64,000 nucleotides of DNA from Morinoia aosen (Eukaryota; Arthropoda; Malacostraca; Amphipoda; Talitridae). Every line of letters starts with the position of its first letter. The first letter of the stretch is position 1. Where the stretch lies: positions 22,269,038-22,333,037 of the forward strand of contig CM059577.1 in the NCBI GenBank assembly GCA_030386875.1. The letters are read 5' to 3'. A program made the position numbers and the translations under genes. The notes under the pieces were generated by a model. The model was not told where the DNA came from. It made no database searches and saw nothing but the letters and a program-made list of their open reading frames with translations. This document shows positions 6,398-56,818 of this stretch, one piece after another.

Positions 6398-7047
6398 TTT
6401 TATGGAGTGAATAGATTCTATGTAGATATTTTATTCTAGGACCTAGTACAGTTCTAATAAACATGATTTCAATATTAACAGCATTCTTTGTTTATAAGTT
6501 TCTGAAGACAATTCGACTAAAGAAAACTAACTTTCCTGATATTTACATCCGTGTTTTTTTGTCATGATTTTTTTTAAATGTTAATAAAAAATGATTTTTT
6601 TGGTGCAATGAACTATAATAGCCATGTTTTTTAGTCATAATTTTTGTATAAATAACATGTTTTTTTAAAAAAAAACAGCATGGTTTTTTAGTTACATCTC
6701 TATCAATGACCATAAGTAAAGATATGTTATTATAACACACCATTTTGGGAGTTTAAGGTCATTCACATGTATTGTAAAATAAATGAAATATCAAAGCATG
6801 AAACCGCAGAAAATGAAAAAGTTCATAAAACCATAGAAAACCATCAATTAAGAAGTATGCTGTTTTATTTTGTAATTTGACATGAAAACAAATAATGTAA
6901 TGTGGTTCTTTTTCTTGCTGAGTTATTTTCAGACAAAATATTAAAAAAAAAACAAAATATCCACGTTTTTTTTGGCCACGGTTTTTTTTGTAAAAAAACG
7001 TGTTTTTTAAAAAAAAACGGCGTGGTTTTTTTTTAGTCACATCTCTA

Positions 7048-7868
7048 CGACTAACCCATCGATTTGTAAATTTTTGGGCAAGAAACCGTCGCACATTTAG
7101 AGCATAATGTGCCGGAGCTCCATTGTGTTGAAACCAAAGTCGTTTACGTATACATAATGGCACATTTTCCAATAAACCAGGAAGGACTTCTTCAAGAAAG
7201 ATTTTGTACACATCTCCAGTAAGACGCTCTGGCAGAATGTATGGACCAATAAGTTGATTGTGCACGATACCTGCCCAAACATTGACAGTGTAGCGATGTT
7301 GGCGATGACGTTCATGCATGACATGAGGATTGTTGTTCTGCTGCCATGAGTGAAAGTTATGATAATCAAAAATTCCATCTCGGCTGAAGGTTGCTTTATC
7401 CGTAAACAACACAAACTCTGCAAAATTGGCATCTTCTACCCCCCGATCTAGAAACCACTGCGCGAATCGCTCACGAGGACCATGATCAACGGGAAGGAGA
7501 CCCTGGACTCTCTGGAAGTGATACGGATGATAATTATTCCGGTTCAATACATGCCACACTGTACTATGGTCACGAATACCCAAAAACGCTGCTGCGGCAC
7601 GGGTGCTCGTACGCGGGTTTCTACGGAAATAATCCAACGCTTCTTGCTCTCGATGATAATTTATTGGGCGACCAACGTCTACTCTGTTTACACTAAAACT
7701 GCCGGTTTCCGTCAATCTTCGGTGCAATGCAGTGAATAATCGATGATCAGGGACTCCTCGATTAAGGTAACGTTCGTGATAGATTCTCGCGGCACGTCTT
7801 GCATTACCATTAGCAGCACCATAAGTGAAATGCATGTCTGCCATTTGTGCATTTGTAAGGCGATACAT
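7048..7868 (-). pseudogene. Mariner transposase, N-terminal and catalytic block
   Basis: The likely start is the Met at 7868 (MYRLTNAQMADMH), 15 codons inside the longer open frame. A helix-turn-helix region (about residues 1-60) like the Pfam DUF4817 domain of arthropod transposases comes first, then GRPINYH as linker. The first catalytic Asp is in LFTDKATFSRDG. The second catalytic position reads FQHNGAPAHY, with Asn where this family normally has Asp. The block ends in RWVSR, where the insertion begins. Spacing from this Asn to the third Asp is 41 intervening residues, the DD41D pattern of rosa-type mariners. Confidence 0.9.
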
Positions 7869-8110
7869 CTTACCACTTCGGTGCCACGGTGCTAACTGAC
7901 AAAAGATACACATACGCTTCTCACCAGGGGACGCTAACGTTGACTAGGAATTTCTAGAAATTTCCTGAATCTGTGAATTAATGTTTCAAACTGTAAATAA
8001 AACATGTTCGATTCTGCCAACACTTTTTCATTCTAATTCCCCATATTGCCCTTATTCCTGTCTGTTGCGAAATGGCTGTTGTGTTCTTGTAGCGTAGTAT
8101 TAAAAACTTC

Positions 8111-11301: not shown

Positions 11302-11520
11302 CCTCTAATTGCGCATCGTCCTCGTTCCTCCCCTCGAATTCCCCGTCCTCGAAGTCGCGGTCGTTGACTGCACGCTCCCCTGAGGCAGGCTTCCCCTCCG
11401 GCTGGGGATCTGGGACGATGGCGTCGTACAGCGGTCCCTCCCCAACCCCGTAGGTCCTCAGCAGGGGAGCGGATGGGGAGGAGGACGAGCGCTTCTCGAT
11501 GGAGTAAGCCTTTACGCCGT
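11302..11520 (-). CDS. Ddr: DDR receptor exon after the discoidin domain
   Basis: Acceptor CCTTCCCCAG precedes 11520 and donor GTAAATG follows 11302. The 219-bp exon is phase 1 at both ends. Joined to the exon at 12593-12743 it gives LELYGCYTH then DGVKAYSIEK. This is the arrangement known from DDR receptors, where the discoidin domain ends LxLYGC and is followed by a DGLVSY-like segment. A later LYDAIVPD segment parallels the VYDG motif of DDRs. The second half (many Asp, Glu and Gly) is an acidic linker that I cannot align. The product would be a collagen-binding receptor Tyr kinase at the plasma membrane, and this part is extracellular. Confidence 0.78.
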
Positions 11521-12177
11521 CTGGGGAAGGGTGGAAATTTTCATGTTTCGGTCACAACGGTCTGCCAAGAATTCATTCCTAAAGAAATGTCGACCTGACC
11601 TAGGCAACTTAACGAGGGAGAGCGCAGTAAATTGTTAGCGTAATTTTTCATCCGGTGCCGGGTGGGAACGACTTAACTCGTTTTTGTTCAATTTGTCGCT
11701 TTTAGGGAACAAGTGAACTCATCCACAGCGCGAGGTATCAAAAGTTGTCTCAGGGGAGTTATATGTCAGCGACTCACCGACTCTCAGCGGCCAACGAGAT
11801 CAGCGCTAAAAACACCCCGGAAAAATTACAAAACTAACTTGAAACGAGAAATTTCTTCAAATAAGTCACCGGGAAGGGGATAATAAAACATAATTGCAAA
11901 AAAATAAATGAGCCCAAAAACGAACAAGCAAACAAATCACAGACACTCACGACAGACCTACATAAGTTCAGCGCGTCACTCAGGACGGAGACGCGCACAC
12001 GGCGGCAGGTCATACGATCAGGCGAGGCACAGGGCTGCTCAGGAGAGACACGGCCACAAGGAGAGAAAAATGGAATTTCAGACCGGAAATGAGAGGTTGC
12101 CATGCTGACCGTGCGTGACTCTGGTGGCTGTGCGTAATTGCAGGCCTCATAGCCGTATTTACTGAGCTGAGACTTAC
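11521..12177. other. Unique DNA, DDR intron
   Basis: Intron between the two DDR exons. At its upstream end on the minus strand (12172-12177) there is a perfect GTAAGT preceded by CAGG, a stronger donor than the one inferred for the exon. It lies at the far side of the 20-bp array. Confidence 0.55.
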
Positions 12178-12592
12178 CCTGACCGTACCGTGAGTGAACT
12201 GAAAAGCCTTACTGTGAAAGAAACGGCCCTACCGTGAGTGTAACAGCCGTATCGTGAATGTAACAGCCGTACTGTGAGTGTAGCACCCGTACCATGAGTG
12301 AAGCAGCCGTACTGTGAGTGTAGCAACCATACCATGAGTGTAGCAACCATACCATGAGTGAAGCAGCCGTACTGTGAGTGCAGCAACCATACCATGAGTG
12401 AAGCAGCCGTACTGTGAGTGTAGCAGCCGTACCATGAGTGTAGCAGCCGTACCGTGAGTGTAGCAGCCGTACTGTGAGTGTAGCAGCCGTACTGTGAGTG
12501 TAGCAACCATACCATGAGTGTAGCAGCCGTACTGTGAGTGTAGCAACCATTCTATGAGTGAAGCAGCCGTACTGTGAGTGTAGCAGCCGTAC
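12178..12592. repeat. 20-bp minisatellite grown from the DDR exon/donor junction
   Basis: About 20 units, minus-strand form GTACGGCTGCTACACTCAC plus A or G. The last 20 coding bases of the adjoining exon (12593-12612), encoding YGCYTH, are the same sequence. Since LxLYGC is conserved across discoidin domains, the array most likely spread from the exon into the intron. Every unit with GT at its start is a copy of the inferred splice donor. Confidence 0.9.
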
Positions 12593-12743
12593 CGTGAGTG
12601 TAGCAGCCGTACAGCTCCAGTCGTAGACACACAACACGCGGCTGCACGCTGTACGGCACGATGCGCAGGCGTCGGGCCGACAGCGGCCGTACCAGCCGGT
12701 TCCTGACCGTACTGAAGGTGTCCTTGTTGGCTGGGAACAGCGT
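12593..12743 (-). CDS. Ddr: DDR receptor exon, C-terminal half of discoidin domain
   Basis: Acceptor CTCCTCCTCCAG precedes 12743. The exon encodes 50 residues in phase 0 and ends in phase 1 at CACG|GTACGG. The translation begins TLFPANKDTFSTVRN and includes ARRLRIVPYSVQPRVVCLRL and ELYGC. This is the F5/8 type C (discoidin) ending: a GN.D-like turn, the ARRLRI strand, then LRLELYGC with the domain-closing Cys. The junction with the next exon restores a DDR-like sequence, which separates it from other discoidin proteins such as neurexin IV, neuropilin or clotting factors. In the exon's frame, reading on into the array meets a stop near 12552, so splicing at the first donor is needed. Confidence 0.85.
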
Positions 12744-13447
12744 CTGGAGGAGGAGGGGGAGTGAGGAGATAGGAGTGAGGGGAGTGAGGGGAGTGAGGGG
12801 AGTGTGGGGGAGTGTGGGGGAAGTGACGGCAGTTGTACTCATACAAATTCTCTCTGGGATCTTTTTGGTGAAACAAAAGTAGTAAAAATATGTTCTAAAA
12901 AATAAGGGACCAATAATAATTAATCACGAAATAAGTAATCATAATCCTCAGTGTGACATGAATAATTCTACTTTCTCATACTATTTTTTTTAGTTTAAAT
13001 GAATCAAAATCTACCTTGTTTAACATGAGGTTAAATATTCAATATACATAATAATAATAATACTCAATACTTAATGTTTAATCCTTAATTAATATATTTA
13101 CCTGTCCTACATGTGTGCAGATAGCTTCTAGAGATAAATTTTGGTATTGCGTTTAAAGTCGTCCGGCGCCCGGTGTGCCTAAACACCGGAACTGGCGAGC
13201 GGTAGACTTAGCGCGGGAAATTTTGGCGTTACAAATGTTTCCACCAGGAGGTGCGGAAATTAATTGATAAATATTATCATCGGATGCTTACAATAATTAT
13301 TTCTAATTTTTATCAACGTTATTCAATTTATTTTCTTGGTATCAATACCGTACAACCATCCACAAACATCGTCATTATAACTATGATTATTAAAGCCAGT
13401 ACAAAATTTCTTAGCCACACATTAGAATGAGTCATAAGTTCGTTTAA
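12744..13447. other. DDR intron or upstream DNA
   Basis: Contains a G-rich stretch (12750-12825, GTGAGGGGA units). On the minus strand this gives the pyrimidine tract before the DDR exon. The rest is AT-rich with no recognised gene. Confidence 0.5.
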
Positions 13448-34371: not shown

Positions 34372-34447
34372 TTTATAAACAACAATCATTCTGTCTCTGA
34401 AGTAAAAAGATCAAAGCACAGAGAATGACAGGAATCACGAAAAGAAA

Positions 34448-34834
34448 ATGAAGAAAAAAATTGAAAAAAATGGGGTACAGTGCACAACGTCGTACGTCGT
34501 ACGCATGAGGTCACGAAATTTTTACATCAGGGTAGCAGAGCATCGGTCTAGAAGCTTCCGTACTGGGATTCAATTAGCACACCAATCGCACCCTGCAGTG
34601 CACGATCATGCTGAAAAATGCAATGTAGTCGAATTTGCTGCCGATTTCAAAATTTTACCCACAGCTTCGACCCCAGATGACCCCAAGATTTTAGAATCTT
34701 TACATATTTTTAAGCGAAATCGTGACCTAAACAATACGGACAGTTTATACCCTTTCCCAATAATGAATAGTTGCAAAATCTTTATTTACCTTCTCAATTT
34801 TACATTTATTTTTATTTGTCATATTTTTTCGTGA
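34448..34834 (+). pseudogene. PLE GIY-YIG endonuclease remnant
   Basis: Recognisable parts are SRNFYIRVAEHRSRSFRTG (the Arg and His helix of the GIY-YIG fold), then HDHAEKCN and ILESLHIFKRNRDLNN with the late Glu. The core YVG motif reads YVVRM, so the nuclease is damaged. Upstream RT motifs are absent. The C-terminal 25 residues are hydrophobic read-through into the inverted repeat. Confidence 0.78.
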
Positions 34835-49746: not shown

Positions 49747-52700
49747 ATATTCAGTATATGCGTGGCTGTAACACGCTGTGTTACATTCAGTATATGCGTG
49801 GCTGTAACACGGTGTGTTACATTCAGTATATGCGTGGCTGTAACACGCTGTGTTACATTCAGTATATGCGTGGCTGTAACACGGTGTGTTACATTCAGTA
49901 TATGCGTGGCTGTAACACGCTGTGTTACATTCAGTATATGCGTGGCTGTAACACGCTGTGTTACATTCAGTATATGCGTGGCTGTAACACGCTGTGTTAC
50001 ATTCAGTATATGCGTGGCTGTAACACGGTGTGTTACATTCAGTATATGCGTGGCTGTAACACGCTGTGTTACATTCAGTATATGCGTGGCTGTAACACGG
50101 TGTGTTACATTCAGTATATGCGTGGCTGTAACACGCTGTGTTACATTCAGTATATGCGTGGCTGTAACACGGTGTGTTACATTCAGTATATGCGTGGCTG
50201 TAACACGCTGTGTTACATTCAGTATATGCGTGGCTGTAACACGCTGTGTTACATTCAGTATATGCGTGGCTGTAACACGCTGTGTTACATTCAGTATATG
50301 CGTGGCTGTAACACGGTGTGTTACATTCAGTATATGCGTGGCTGTAACACGCTGTGTTACATTCAGTATATGCGTGGCTGTAACACGGTGTGTTACATTC
50401 AGTATATGCGTGGCTGTAACACGCTGTGTTACATTCAGTATATGCGTGGCTGTAACACGGTGTGTTACATTCAGTATATGCGTGGCTGTAACACGCTGTG
50501 TTACATTCAGTATATGCGTGGCTGTAACACGCTGTGTTACATTCAGTATATGCGTGGCTGTAACACGCTGTGTTACATTCAGTATATGCGTGGCTGTAAC
50601 ACGGTGTGTTACATTCAGTATATGCGTGGCTGTAACACGGTGTGTTACATTCAGTATATGCGTGGCTGTAACACGGTGTGTTACATTCAGAATATGCGTG
50701 GCTGTAACACGGTGTGTTACATTCAGTATATGCGTGGCTGTAACACGGTGTGTTACATTCAGTATATGCGTGGCTGTAACACGGTGTGTTACATTCAGTT
50801 TATGCATTGCTGTAACACGGTGTGTTACATTCAGTATATGCGTGGCTGTAACACGCTGTGTTACATTCAGTATATGCGTGGCTGTAACACGCTGTGTTAC
50901 TTTCAGTATATGCGTGGCTGTAACACGGTGTGTAACATTCAGTATATGCGTGGCTGTAACACGCTGTGTTACATTCAGTATATGCGTGGCTGTAACACGC
51001 TGTGTTACATTCAGTATATGCGTGGCTGTAACACGGTGTGTTACATTCAGTATATGCGTGGCTGCAACACGCTGTGTTACATTCAGTATATGCGTGGCTG
51101 TAACACGGTGTGTTACATTCAGTATATGCGTGGCTGTAACACGGTGTGTTACAATCAGTATATGCGTGTCTGTAACACGCTGTGTTACATTCAGTATATG
51201 CGTGGCTGTAACACGGTGTGTTACATTCAGTATATGCGTGGCTGTAACACGGTGTGTTACATTCAGTATATGCGTGGCTGTAACACGGTGTGTTACATTC
51301 AGTATATGCGTGGCTGTATCACGCTGTGTTACATTCAGTATATGCGTGGCTGCAACACGGTGTGTTACATTCAGTATAAGCGTGGCTGCAACACGGTGTG
51401 TTACATTCAGTATATGCGTGGCTGCAACACGGTGTGTTAAATTCAGTATATGCGTGGCTGCAACACGGTGTGTTACATTCAGTATATGCGTGGCTGTATC
51501 ACGCTGTGTTACATTCAGTATATGCGTGGCTGCAACACGGTGTGTTACATTCAGTATAAGCGTGGCTGCAACACGGTGTGTTACATTCAGTATATGCGTG
51601 GTTGCAACACGGTGTGTTACATTCAGTATATGCGTGGCTGTATCACGCTGTGTTACATTCAGTATATGCGTGGCTGTAACACGGTGTGTTAAATTCAGTA
51701 TATGCGTGGCTGTAACACGGTGTGTTACATTCAGTATATGCGTGGCTGTATCACGCTGTGTTACATTCAGTATATGCGTGGCTGTAACACGGTGTGTTAA
51801 ATTCAGTATATGCGTGGCTAAAACACGGTGTGTTACATTCAGTATATGCGTTGCTGTAACACGGTGTGTTACATTCAGTATATGCGTTGCTGTAACACGG
51901 TGTGTTACATTCAGTATATGCGTTGCTGTAACACGGTGTGTTAAATTCAGTATATGCGTGGCTGCAACACGGTGTGTTACATTCAGTATATGCGTGGCTG
52001 TATCACGCTGTGTTACATTCAGTATATGCGTGGCTGTAACACGGTGTGTTACATTCAGTATATGCGTTGCTGTAACACGGTGTGTTAAATTCAGTATATG
52101 CGTGGCTGCAACACGGTGTGTTACATTCAGTATATGCGTGGCTGTATCACGCTGTGTTACATTCAGTATATGCGTGGCTGTAACACGGTGTGTTACATTC
52201 AGTATATGCGTTGCTGTAACACGGTGTGTTACATTCAGTTTATGCGTGGCTGCAACACGGTGTGTTACATTCAGTTTATGCATTGCTGTAACACGGTGTG
52301 TTACATTCAGTATATGCGTCGCTGTAACACGCGGTGTTACATTCAGTATATGCATTGCTGTAACACGCTGTGTTACATTCAGTATATGCGTGGCTGTAAC
52401 ACGGTGTGTTACATTCAGTATATGCGTGGCTGTAACACGTTGTGTTACATTCAGTTTATGCGTGGCTGTAACACGTTGTGTTACATTCAGTATATGCGTG
52501 GCTGTATCACGGTGTGTTACATTCAGTATATGCGTGGCTGTAACACGTTGTGTTACATTCAGTTTATGCATTGCTGTAACACGTTGTGTTACATTCAGTA
52601 TATGCGTGGCTGCAACACGGTGTGTTACATTCAGTTTATGCGTGGCTGTATCACGGTGTGTTACATTCAGTATATGCATTGCTGTAACACGTTGTGTTAC

Positions 52701-55700
52701 ATTCAGTATAGGCGTGGCTGTTTCACGGTGTGTTACATTCAGTATATGCGTGGCTGTAACACGTTGTGTTACATTCAGTTTATGCATTGCTGTAACACGT
52801 TGTGTTACATTCAGTTTATGCATTGCTGTAACACGTTGTGTTACATTCAGTTTATGCATTGCTGTAACACGTTGTGTTACATTCAGTTTATGCATTGCTG
52901 TAACACGTTGTGTTACATTCAGTATATGCGTGGCTGTAACACGATGTGTTACATTCAGTATATGCGTGGCTGTATCACGGTGTGTTACATTCAGTATATG
53001 CGTGGCTGTAACACGTTGTGTTAAATTCAGTTTATGCGTGGCTGTAACACGGTGTGTTACATTCAGTATATGCGTGGCTGTAACACGTTGTGTTACATTC
53101 AGTATATGCGTGGCTGTATCACGGTGTGTTACATTCAGTATATGCGTGGCTGTAACACGGTGTGTTACAGTCAGTTTATGCGTGGCTGTAACACGCTGTG
53201 TTAAATTCAGTTTATGCATTGCTGTAACACGGTGTGTTACATTCAGTATATGCGTGGCTGTAACACGGTGTGTTATATTCAGTTTATGCATTGCTGTAAC
53301 ACGGTGTGTTACATTCAGTATATGCGTGGCTGTAACACGCTGTGTTACATTCAGTTTATGCGTGGCTGTAACACGTTGTGTTACATTCAGTTTATGCATT
53401 GCTGTAACACGTTGTGTTACATTCAGTATATGCGTGGCTGTAACACGTTGTGTTACATTCAGTATATGCGTGGCTGTAACACGGTGTGTTACATTCAGTT
53501 TATGCATTGCTGTAACACGCTGTGTTACATTCAGTATATGCGTGGCTGTAACACGTCGTGTTACATTCAGTTTATGCGTGGCTGTAACACGTTGTGTTAC
53601 ATTCAGCATATGCGTGGCTGTATCACGTTGTGTTACATTCAGTTTATGCATTGCTGTAACACGTTGTGTTACATTCAGTATATGCGTGGCTGCAACACGG
53701 TGTGTTACATTCAGTTTATGCGTGGCTGTATCACGGTGTGTTACATTCAGTATATGCGTGGCTGCAACACGTTGTGTTACATTCAGTATATGCGTGGCTG
53801 TATCACGGTGTGTTACATTCAGTATATGCGTGGCTGCAACACGTTGTGTTACATTCAGTATATGCGTGGCTGCAACACGTTGTGTTACATTCAGTATATG
53901 CGTGGCTGTATCACGGTGTGTTACATTCAGTATATGCGTGGCTGCAACACGTTGTGTTACATTCAGTATATGCGTGGCTGTATCACGGTGTGTTACATTC
54001 AGTATATGCGTGGCTGCAACACGTTGTGTTACATTCAGTATATGCGTGGCTGCAACACGTTGTGTTACATTCAGTATATGCGTGGCTGTATCACGGTGTG
54101 TTACATTCAGTATATGCGTGGCTGCAACACGTTGTGTTACATTCAGTATATGCGTGGCTGTATCACGGTGTGTTACATTCAGTATATGCGTGGCTGTAAC
54201 ACGTTGTGTTACATTCAGTATATGCGTGGCTGTATCACGGTGTGTTACATTCAGTTTATGCATTGCTGTAACACGTTGTGTTACATTCAGTATATGCGTG
54301 GCTGCAACACGTTGTGTTACATTCAGTTTATGCGTGGCTGTATCACGGTGTGTTACATTCAGTATATGCGTGGCTGCAACACGTTGTGTTACATTCAGTA
54401 TATGCGTGGCTGTATCACGGTGTGTTACATTCAGTATATGCGTGGCTGTAACACGTTGTGTTACATTCAGTATATGCGTGGCTGTAACACGTTGTGTTAC
54501 ATTCAGTATATGCGTGGCTGTATCACGTTGTGTTACATTCATTATATGCGTGGCTGTAACACGGTGTGTTACATTCAGTTTATGCATTGCTGTAACACGC
54601 TGTGTTACATTCAGTATATGCATGGCTGTAACACGTTGTGTTACATTCAGTTTATGCGTGGCTGTAACACGTTGTGTTACATTCAGTATATGCGTGGCTG
54701 TATCACGTTGTGTTACATTCAGTATATGCGTGGCTGTAACACGGTGTGTTACATTCAGTTTATGCATTGCTGTAACACGTTGTGTTACATTCAGTATATG
54801 CGTGGCTGTAACACGGTGTGTTACATTCAGTATATGCGTGGCTGCAACACGTTGTGTTACATTCAGTATATGCGTGGCTGTAACACGGTGTGTTACATTC
54901 AGTATATGCGTGGCTGCAACACGTTGTGTTACATTCAGTATATGCGTGGCTGCATCACGTTGTGTTACATTCAGTATATGCGTGGCTGTAACACGTTGTG
55001 TTACATTCAGTATATGCGTGGCTGTAACACGGTGTGTTACATTCAGTTTATGCATTGCTGTAACACGTTGTGTTACATTCAGTATATGCGTGGCTGTAAC
55101 ACGGTGGGTTACATTCAGTTTATGCATTGCTGTAACACGTTGTGTTACATTCAGTATATGCGTGGCTGTAACACGGTGTGTTACATTCAGTTTATGCATT
55201 GCTGTAACACGTTGTGTTACATTCAGTATAAGCGTGGCTGTAACACGGTGTGTTACATTCAGTTTATGCATTGCTGTAACACGTTGTGTTACATTCAGTA
55301 TTTGCGTGGCTGCAACACGGTGTGTTACATTCAGTTTATGCATTGCTGTAACACGTTGTGTTACATTCAGTTTATGCGTGGCTGTAACACGGTGTGTTAC
55401 ATTCAGTATATGCGTGGCTGTAACACGGTGTGTAACATTCAGTATATGCGTGGCTGTAACACGGTGTGTTACATTCAGTATATGCGTGGCTGTAACACGC
55501 TGTGTTACATTCAGTAAATGCGTGGCTGTAACACGCTGTGTTACATTCAGTATATGCGTGGCTGTAACACGTTGTGTTACATTCAGTTTATGCATTGCTG
55601 TAACACGTTGTGTTACATTCAGTATATGCGTGGCTGTAACACGGTGTGTTACATTCAGTTTATTCATTGCTGTAACACGTTGTGTTACATTCAGTATATG

Positions 55701-56818
55701 CGTGGCTGCAACACGGTGTGTTACATTCAGTTTATGCATTGCTGTAACACGTTGTGTTACATTCAGTATATGCGTGGCTGTAACACGGTGTGTTACATTC
55801 AGTTTATGCATTGCTGTAACACGTTGTGTTACATTCAGTTTATGCATTGCTGTAACGCGGTGTGTTACATTCAGTTTATGCATTGCTGTAACACGTTGTG
55901 TTACATTCAGTTTATGCATTGCTGTAACACAGTGTGTTACATTCAGTTTATGCATTGCTGTAACACGTTGTGTTACATTCAGTATATGCGTGGCTGTAAC
56001 ACGATGTGTTTCATTCAGTTTATGCATTGCTGTAACACGGTGTGTTACATTCAGTATATGCGTGGCTGTAACACGCGGTGTTACATTCAGTTTATGCATT
56101 GCTGTAACACGCTGTGTTACATTCAGTATATGCGTGGCTGTAACACGCTGTGTTACATTCAGTATGTGCGTGGCTGTAACACGTTGTGTTACATTCAGTT
56201 TATGCATTGCTGTAACACGTTGTGTTACATTCAGTTCATGCATTGCTGTAACACGGTGTGTTACATTCAGTATATGCGTGGCTGTAACACGGTGCGTTAC
56301 ATTCAGTATATGCGTGGCTGTAACACGCTGTGTTACATTCAGTATATGCGTGGCTGTAACACGCTGTGTTACATTCTGTATATGCGTGGCAGTAACACGT
56401 TGTGTTACATTCAGTATATGCGTTGCTGTAACACGGTGTGTTACATTCAGTATATGCGTGGCTGTAACACGGTGTGTTACATTCAGTATATGCGTTGCTG
56501 TAACACGCGGTGGTACATTCAGTATATGCGTTGCTGTAACGCGGTGTTACATTCAGTTTATGCGTTGCTGTAACACGGTGTGTTACATTCAGAATATGCG
56601 TGGCTGCAACACGTCGTGTTTCATGCAGTAAATGCATTGCTGTAACACGTTGTGTTACATTCAGTATATGCGTTGCTGTAACACGGTGTGTTACATTCAG
56701 TATATGCGTTGCTGTAACACGGTGTGTTACATTCAGTATATGCGTGGCTGTAACACGGTGTGTTACATTCAGTATATGCGTGGCTGTAACACGGTGTGTT
56801 ACATGCAGTAAATGCATT
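49747..56818. repeat. 36-bp satellite array, about 196 units
   Basis: Each unit holds ATTCAGTATATGCGTGGC and TGTAACACGGTGTGTTAC. The second half is a dyad: TGTAACAC, three-base loop, GTGTTACA. Common variants are GCATTGC for GCGTGGC, GTTTATG for GTATATG, TGCAACAC or TGTATCAC for TGTAACAC, and G, C or T in the loop. The left 0.9 kb shows an 8-unit (288-bp) period, and 53.75-54.19 kb a 5-unit (180-bp) period. Since 36 is a multiple of three, frames of over 2000 codons stay open on both strands; they are artefacts. No spacers are present, so it is not a CRISPR array. Confidence 0.97.

Follow-up and report, generated by a model that had tools for sequence, protein, structure and literature searches.

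The end of a discoidin exon as probable seed of an intronic minisatellite and its row of donor-like sites in the amphipod Morinoia aosen

When a minisatellite starts in the last codons of an exon and fills the beginning of the following intron, which of the two gave rise to the other, and what became of the splice donor between them? A discoidin domain receptor (DDR)-like gene of Morinoia aosen raises this question. It lies on the minus strand of a stretch of 64,000 nucleotides (nt; GenBank assembly GCA_030386875.1, contig CM059577.1, positions 22,269,038 to 22,333,037), hereafter the window, in which positions are counted from the first base. The sequences show the repeat and its edges, the homology, the reading frames, the stop codon, the CpG polarity, the donors of paralogous exons and two further cases in the same genome, and we argue from these to donor use, donor displacement and a tendency of the genome. 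Taken as a whole, the account that the exon tail was duplicated into a minisatellite, that the original donor was displaced and that exon ends are repeated seeds of such arrays appears to us rather more probable than its competitors together.

The peptide of the exon at 12743-12593, TLFPANKDTFSTVRNRLVRPLSARRLRIVPYSVQPRVVCLRLELYGCYTH, was joined to that of the next exon, and the two-exon protein matched discoidin domains in 31 distinct PDB sequences at E up to 0.001, with neuropilin-2 as the best match (1.3e-6) and DDR1 at 2.6e-5. With a shorter joined query DDR1 was the best match, a weak one (E 0.044) that runs without gap over the splice, where the joined sequence reads VCLRLELYGCYTHDGVKAYSI; the discoidin domain thus continues into DDR-type sequence past Tyr-Gly-Cys, and we regard the gene as DDR-like. 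In Pfam, PF00754 (F5_F8_type_C) stayed below threshold for the exon alone (14 versus a cut-off of 28.2 bits), and neither the joined protein nor the next exon had any match. Because the DDR1 match is gapless over the join and five paralogous exons share the intron position and phase, the end of the exon at 12593 and its joining to DGVKAYS at 11520, proposed in an earlier reading of this DNA from the sequence only, can be upheld. Neither the window nor, in a motif scan, the 200 kb downstream showed a kinase part; this range likewise gave no convincing further exon by motif, and the closest PF07714 match on the contig, among the matches listed, is 1.47 Mb distant.

Tandem Repeats Finder (TRF) placed a 20-bp array of 20.4 copies at 12205-12612, and wrap-around alignment put its exon-side edge at 12612, within the exon, so that the final 20 coding bases, GTACGGCTGCTACACTCACG, form one complete unit. 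The sequence-only reading had called the exon end and the unit the same sequence, and this holds: these bases are identical to unit 7 and one base away from the consensus of units 1-18. Since at least 29,246 of the 64,000 bases of the window lie in array intervals (47 intervals picked and merged from 89 TRF rows, several short rows being excluded), an array next to an exon is unsurprising here; an array built from the exon's own end is surprising. Two extensions of the array were rejected. Beyond the GTAAGT at its far end the best unit match was equalled by 20 of 60 shuffles, and upstream of 12612, where the exon itself might have been an older, degenerate array, the best match was marginal (4 of 60 shuffles) and sits in conserved codons. 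We also observed that GTACGGTCAGG occurs twice on the window's minus strand, in the exon (12702-12712) and at the far end of the array (12178-12188), and that GTACGG stands within the exon at 12712, 12692 and 12612, in a 20-nt register.

The direction of copying can be read from the variants. Units 1-18 differ from the exon copy at 37 places, 21 of which are transitions at the two CpGs of the exon copy. The last dinucleotide of the 18 units is CA in eight, TG in six, CG in three and TA in one, and because CA and TG are each one step from CG, the ancestral unit would have carried CG, as the exon does; these variants are not independent, as units share them through array turnover. Moreover, the unit contains in frame the Tyr-Gly-Cys codons that homology and the paralogue alignment mark as conserved. 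CpG polarity and conserved codons together support the earlier claim that the coding copy is the source, with the exon copy as the ancestral node of CpG-decay variants. They also make it very improbable that an array from elsewhere, or one born in the intron, overwrote the exon end by conversion. Such an origin would accord with similar units on other contigs and with the Tyr-Thr-His after Cys, which is not conserved among the aligned paralogues; yet it would have to explain conserved codons in frame and an exon copy in ancestral position, and the exon part was covered nowhere else when the genome itself (1.99 Gb, 29 contigs) was searched with the DNA of 12178-12743. The 18 matches of that search (7 candidates scored) cover, beyond the locus itself, only the array part, and the similar arrays have units of 20, 19 and 22 bp. 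Prokaryote contigs held no relatives.

How the array came to carry a row of donors may follow from the codons. We propose that the last 20 coding bases of the discoidin exon were tandemly duplicated and expanded into the intronic minisatellite. Because the Leu-Tyr codons read CTG TAC, the duplicated stretch would start with GT, and CACG|GTACGG would therefore have been recreated at each junction between copies. Of these junctions only the first, which coincides with the old exon end, leaves the protein intact, and for that reason it most likely took over as donor; this use is judged from the reading frame, which only the first donor appears to leave open. That donor, ACG|GTACGG, scores 6.03 in a donor-site matrix, a value equalled or exceeded by 4.6% of the 8435 GT sites of the window. 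Downstream of it the sequence-only reading had counted about 20 donor-like GT copies; the row is real, and the number comes down to 17 GTs in register, two units having lost theirs. Eight of the 17 equal or exceed the first donor in score, eight have become ACA|GTACGG at 2.88, and one scores 6.01. The same reading erred in holding that only the first donor keeps phase 1, as the in-register offsets 60, 120, 180, 240, 300 and 360 keep it too, but every downstream GT listed leads to a premature stop, most of them at the TAG at 12554-12552, two units in, where that reading had placed it. It was likewise correct about a stronger GTAAGT at the far end: AGG|GTAAGT at 12177 scores 10.4, with a U1 pairing energy of -9.7 versus -4.5 kcal/mol for the first donor. 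Only four sites on the window's minus strand score as high, 12177 included, and 0.19% of the minus-strand positions lie within 15 nt of any of these four.

Such a row of decoys could be imagined as a regulatory switch, in which array length sets the use of decoy donors and thereby the share of stop-bearing transcripts that are destroyed. The eight downstream GTs that are no weaker than the first donor, the much stronger site at 12177 and the stops behind all downstream GTs listed would suit such a device, and the variable-number tandem repeat (VNTR) in TERT intron 6 is described as affecting splicing and nonsense-mediated decay (PMC11830802). However, eight of the 17 array donors have been weakened to ACA|GTACGG, each of 100 shuffles folds more stably than the array strand (z 2.48), on which ground structured RNA was also rejected, and our analysis gave no sign of selection for a switch. 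We consider the switch possible but unsupported, and unlikely. The pattern is what minisatellite birth would leave behind as a by-product if selection preserved the first junction.

If the first junction supplied the present donor, where is the old one? A protein search of the same genome returned, in addition to the two exons of the window, five further discoidin exons, four on contig C11 (L031 and L032, which are nearly identical, L033 and L034) and one on C13 (L035). In each of the five the intron interrupts the gene at the position and in the phase seen in the window: after Tyr (Met in L035), Gly and Cys come three codons and one base. The donor is CTG|GTGAGT in four of the five (score 9.94; two of these loci are the nearly identical ones) and CAT|GTGAGC in one (7.25). 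The C11 paralogues are likely true DDR genes, because tyrosine-kinase matches lie 4.5 to 18 kb from their discoidin exons on the same strand. Against the GTGAGT or GTGAGC of these paralogues the GTACGG of the window gene is an outlier, and it is the same as the exon's own bases. The last unit of the array can be read as GTACGG---------TCAGG|GTAAGT. We therefore favour, without regarding it as proven, that the far-end GTAAGT is probably the old donor, which was not amplified and was pushed 415 nt off to become a decoy, while a GT from the Leu-Tyr codons took over.

The main competitor, to which we give a distinctly smaller though real chance, holds that the original intron already began with GTACGG, that the unit spanned the junction so that the true donor was amplified, and that GTAAGT is a chance neighbour. 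It needs no deletion at the far end, which would simply read CACTCACG|GTACGGTCAGGGTAAGT, and true donors have indeed been amplified at the two further loci described below, L033 and L052. On the other hand, none of the five paralogous donors is GTACGG, all being GTGAGT or GTGAGC, an intronic GTACGG would equal the exonic one by chance, and a donor as strong as that at the end of the array is improbable by chance. The sequence-only reading had likewise supposed that the donor itself was amplified; this does not hold for the window gene under the reading that we favour, where coding bases alone explain the unit and its GTACGG departs from the paralogues' GTGAGY, and the mechanism stands elsewhere, at L033 and L052.

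Our results lead us to propose that exon ends repeatedly seed minisatellites in this array-rich genome; at two other loci the true donor was amplified along with the exon tail. At L033, where the junction reads TACGGCTGTCCCTATACTG|GTGAGTG, a block made up of exon tail, donor and intron start recurs in the intron every 48 or 52 nt (TRF: 52 bp, 8.0 copies; 14 places with at least 17 of 26 matching bases). The homologous Tyr codon of Tyr-Gly-Cys is the starting point of both the L033 array (left edge 1627, 52 bp) and that of the window (12612-12611, 20 bp), with different periods. L052, one of six kinase exons picked from a list by position with the letters unseen beforehand, ends GCTGCTACTACCACTACCAGCTGG|GTGAGTGG, and its intron is a 32-bp array of exactly that sequence, exon tail plus GTGAGT, with 9.7 copies in the stretch examined. 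L052 resembles receptor tyrosine kinases (best matches EGFR and MET) and may be a pseudokinase or a decayed copy, because its catalytic loop reads HID instead of HRD. Besides the exon under study, exon-tail arrays were thus found at two of 12 donor ends, a small sample made up of L031-L035, L048-L053 and the second exon of the window, in which L031 and L032 are near-copies and the donor of L050 is ambiguous. This is more than the array density in 264 kb leads one to expect, the probability of such an outcome lying between 0.005 (outward arrays, 20-nt tail) and 0.04 (any edge, 30-nt tail).

Among the 12 best kinase loci, which mostly end in stop codons, one, L046, which we take to be a PAK-like kinase exon, carries a 129-bp array (minus strand, reversed coordinates 2251-2799) whose start lies 24 nt ahead of the stop codon, together with a 40-bp array (1-1528) that reaches the acceptor, and L041 has a short 2.1-copy repeat inside its frame. 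The 37 copies of a seemingly coding 20-mer at L046 were discarded as intron into which the kinase match had run, and a 33-bp array at L034 lies on the 5' side of its exon without touching it, as judged by eye. At L049 a 28-bp array (35-292) stops about 10 nt short of a kinase exon's acceptor.

Several points weigh against our account. The donor scores depend on the matrix used. For the displacement to hold, the last unit must have lost 9 nt and changed at one base, and the preceding unit must have gained 4 nt; without these changes the old intron would have started GTACGGTCAGGGTAAGT. The exons used for comparison are paralogues, not orthologues. The most similar of the arrays on other contigs, L006, shares in part of its 22-bp unit 15 of 17 bases with the window unit, a likeness that none of 4000 random units reached; chance nevertheless suffices for it, because about 3 per million random units are expected to match so well and the genome may hold arrays of the order of a million, as extrapolated from the window, and kinship is possible. 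Finally, 121 array units in 264 kb contain 10 donors scoring at least 7.5 where 6.8 are expected, and 3 scoring at least 9.5 where 1.2 are expected, neither of which is significant. This gives no support to the idea that arrays in general are seeded by donors; exon ends may be frequent array seeds, while most arrays there would have other origins. Still a tentative generalization, and one we put slightly below even chances, is that exon ends are recurrent minisatellite seeds whose growth either copies the true donor, as at L033 and L052, or, where the tail holds a GT, replaces it, as in the window gene with its conserved donor moved 415 nt and its protein unchanged, leaving genes with rows of stop-bearing decoy donors that vary with array length.

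Part of this has precedents. A minisatellite of the human gene IFI6 (6-16, G1P3) was reportedly described by Turri, Cuin and Porter in 1995 (Nucleic Acids Res 23:1854). Two downstream repeat units of IFI6 act as donors and yield three mRNAs (PMC4526556), so that a minisatellite offering several donors has a clear precedent there. As there, the array of the window sits at an exon-intron boundary with donor-like GTs in its units, here 17 downstream in register and an edge inside the exon; our locus differs in that later donors would give a stop, that the unit is apparently exon sequence alone with the old donor displaced, and that the same genome holds further cases. In Drosophila, Lehmann et al. 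(2010) describe intron change through tandem duplication of exonic sequence or intron sliding, in which coding duplicates supply splice signals and the introns that hold duplicates have premature stops, as here; that duplication creates a new intron (PMC2891723), whereas here the intron existed already and only its start was filled with exon copies. Intron gain by exonic tandem duplication is not what we find, the intron having the same place and phase in five paralogues, and the acceptor side, CCTTCCCCAG|ACGGCG, is not a copy of the unit. TERT VNTR6-1 likewise is a tandem repeat within an intron that influences splicing and decay through its length; the effect is described there in terms of a G-quadruplex and not of repeated exon ends or donors (PMC11830802). 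What seems new is the likely donor replacement and the recurrence in one genome; in the open-licence literature we found no report of either, nor of a discoidin domain receptor together with a minisatellite.

Features of the discoidin exon and its array (window positions)
Feature	Positions	Strand	Basis
9-bp pyrimidine-rich array, minus-strand CCCCTCACT type, 28 nt upstream of the discoidin exon's acceptor	12772-12819	none	TRF
Discoidin exon, 151 nt, C-terminal half of the discoidin (F5/8 type C) domain, DDR-like, phase 1 end	12743-12593	minus	homology, frame, aligned with five paralogous exons
Unit 0, last 20 coding bases, putative source copy of the array	12612-12593	minus	wrap-around alignment, unit comparison
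Intronic 20-bp minisatellite, units 1 to ~20, far end degenerate	12178-12592	minus	TRF, wrap-around alignment, unit comparison
First donor GTACGG, putative sole open-frame donor, from coding Leu-Tyr-Gly bases	12592-12587	minus	frame
In-frame stop TAG, exon read into the array	12554-12552	minus	frame
Strong donor AGG|GTAAGT where the array ends, candidate for the original donor, moved 415 nt	12177-12172	minus	donor score
Next exon, 219 nt, DGVKAYSIEK...QLEG, phase 1 entry, then donor GTAAAT	11520-11302	minus	frame, homology

With the 9-bp and the 20-bp array, the discoidin exon is flanked by arrays on both sides. Elsewhere in the window, a minus-strand open frame (6759-7943) matches the DUF4817 helix-turn-helix at 27 bits versus a cut-off of 22.6 and is presumably transposase-like, and two plus-strand frames (86-931 and 34406-34834), which had no Pfam match at E up to 0.01, we take to be apparent ends of Penelope-like elements. 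A 7-kb array of a 36-bp unit (49749-56815, 196 copies) is open for more than 2200 codons on both strands; its frames are not necessarily coding, because the unit is a multiple of three.

The origins of minisatellites, and the tolerance of genes toward them at splice junctions, are rarely visible in single sequences, and here three exon ends of one genome display seed, copies and donors. Should a larger sample bear the tendency out, it would allow donors to be copied, weakened or replaced without any change in the protein, and the splicing of many genes could be sensitive to array length. Repeats born at splice junctions may thus be a recurring hazard in this genome, rich as it is in short tandem repeats.
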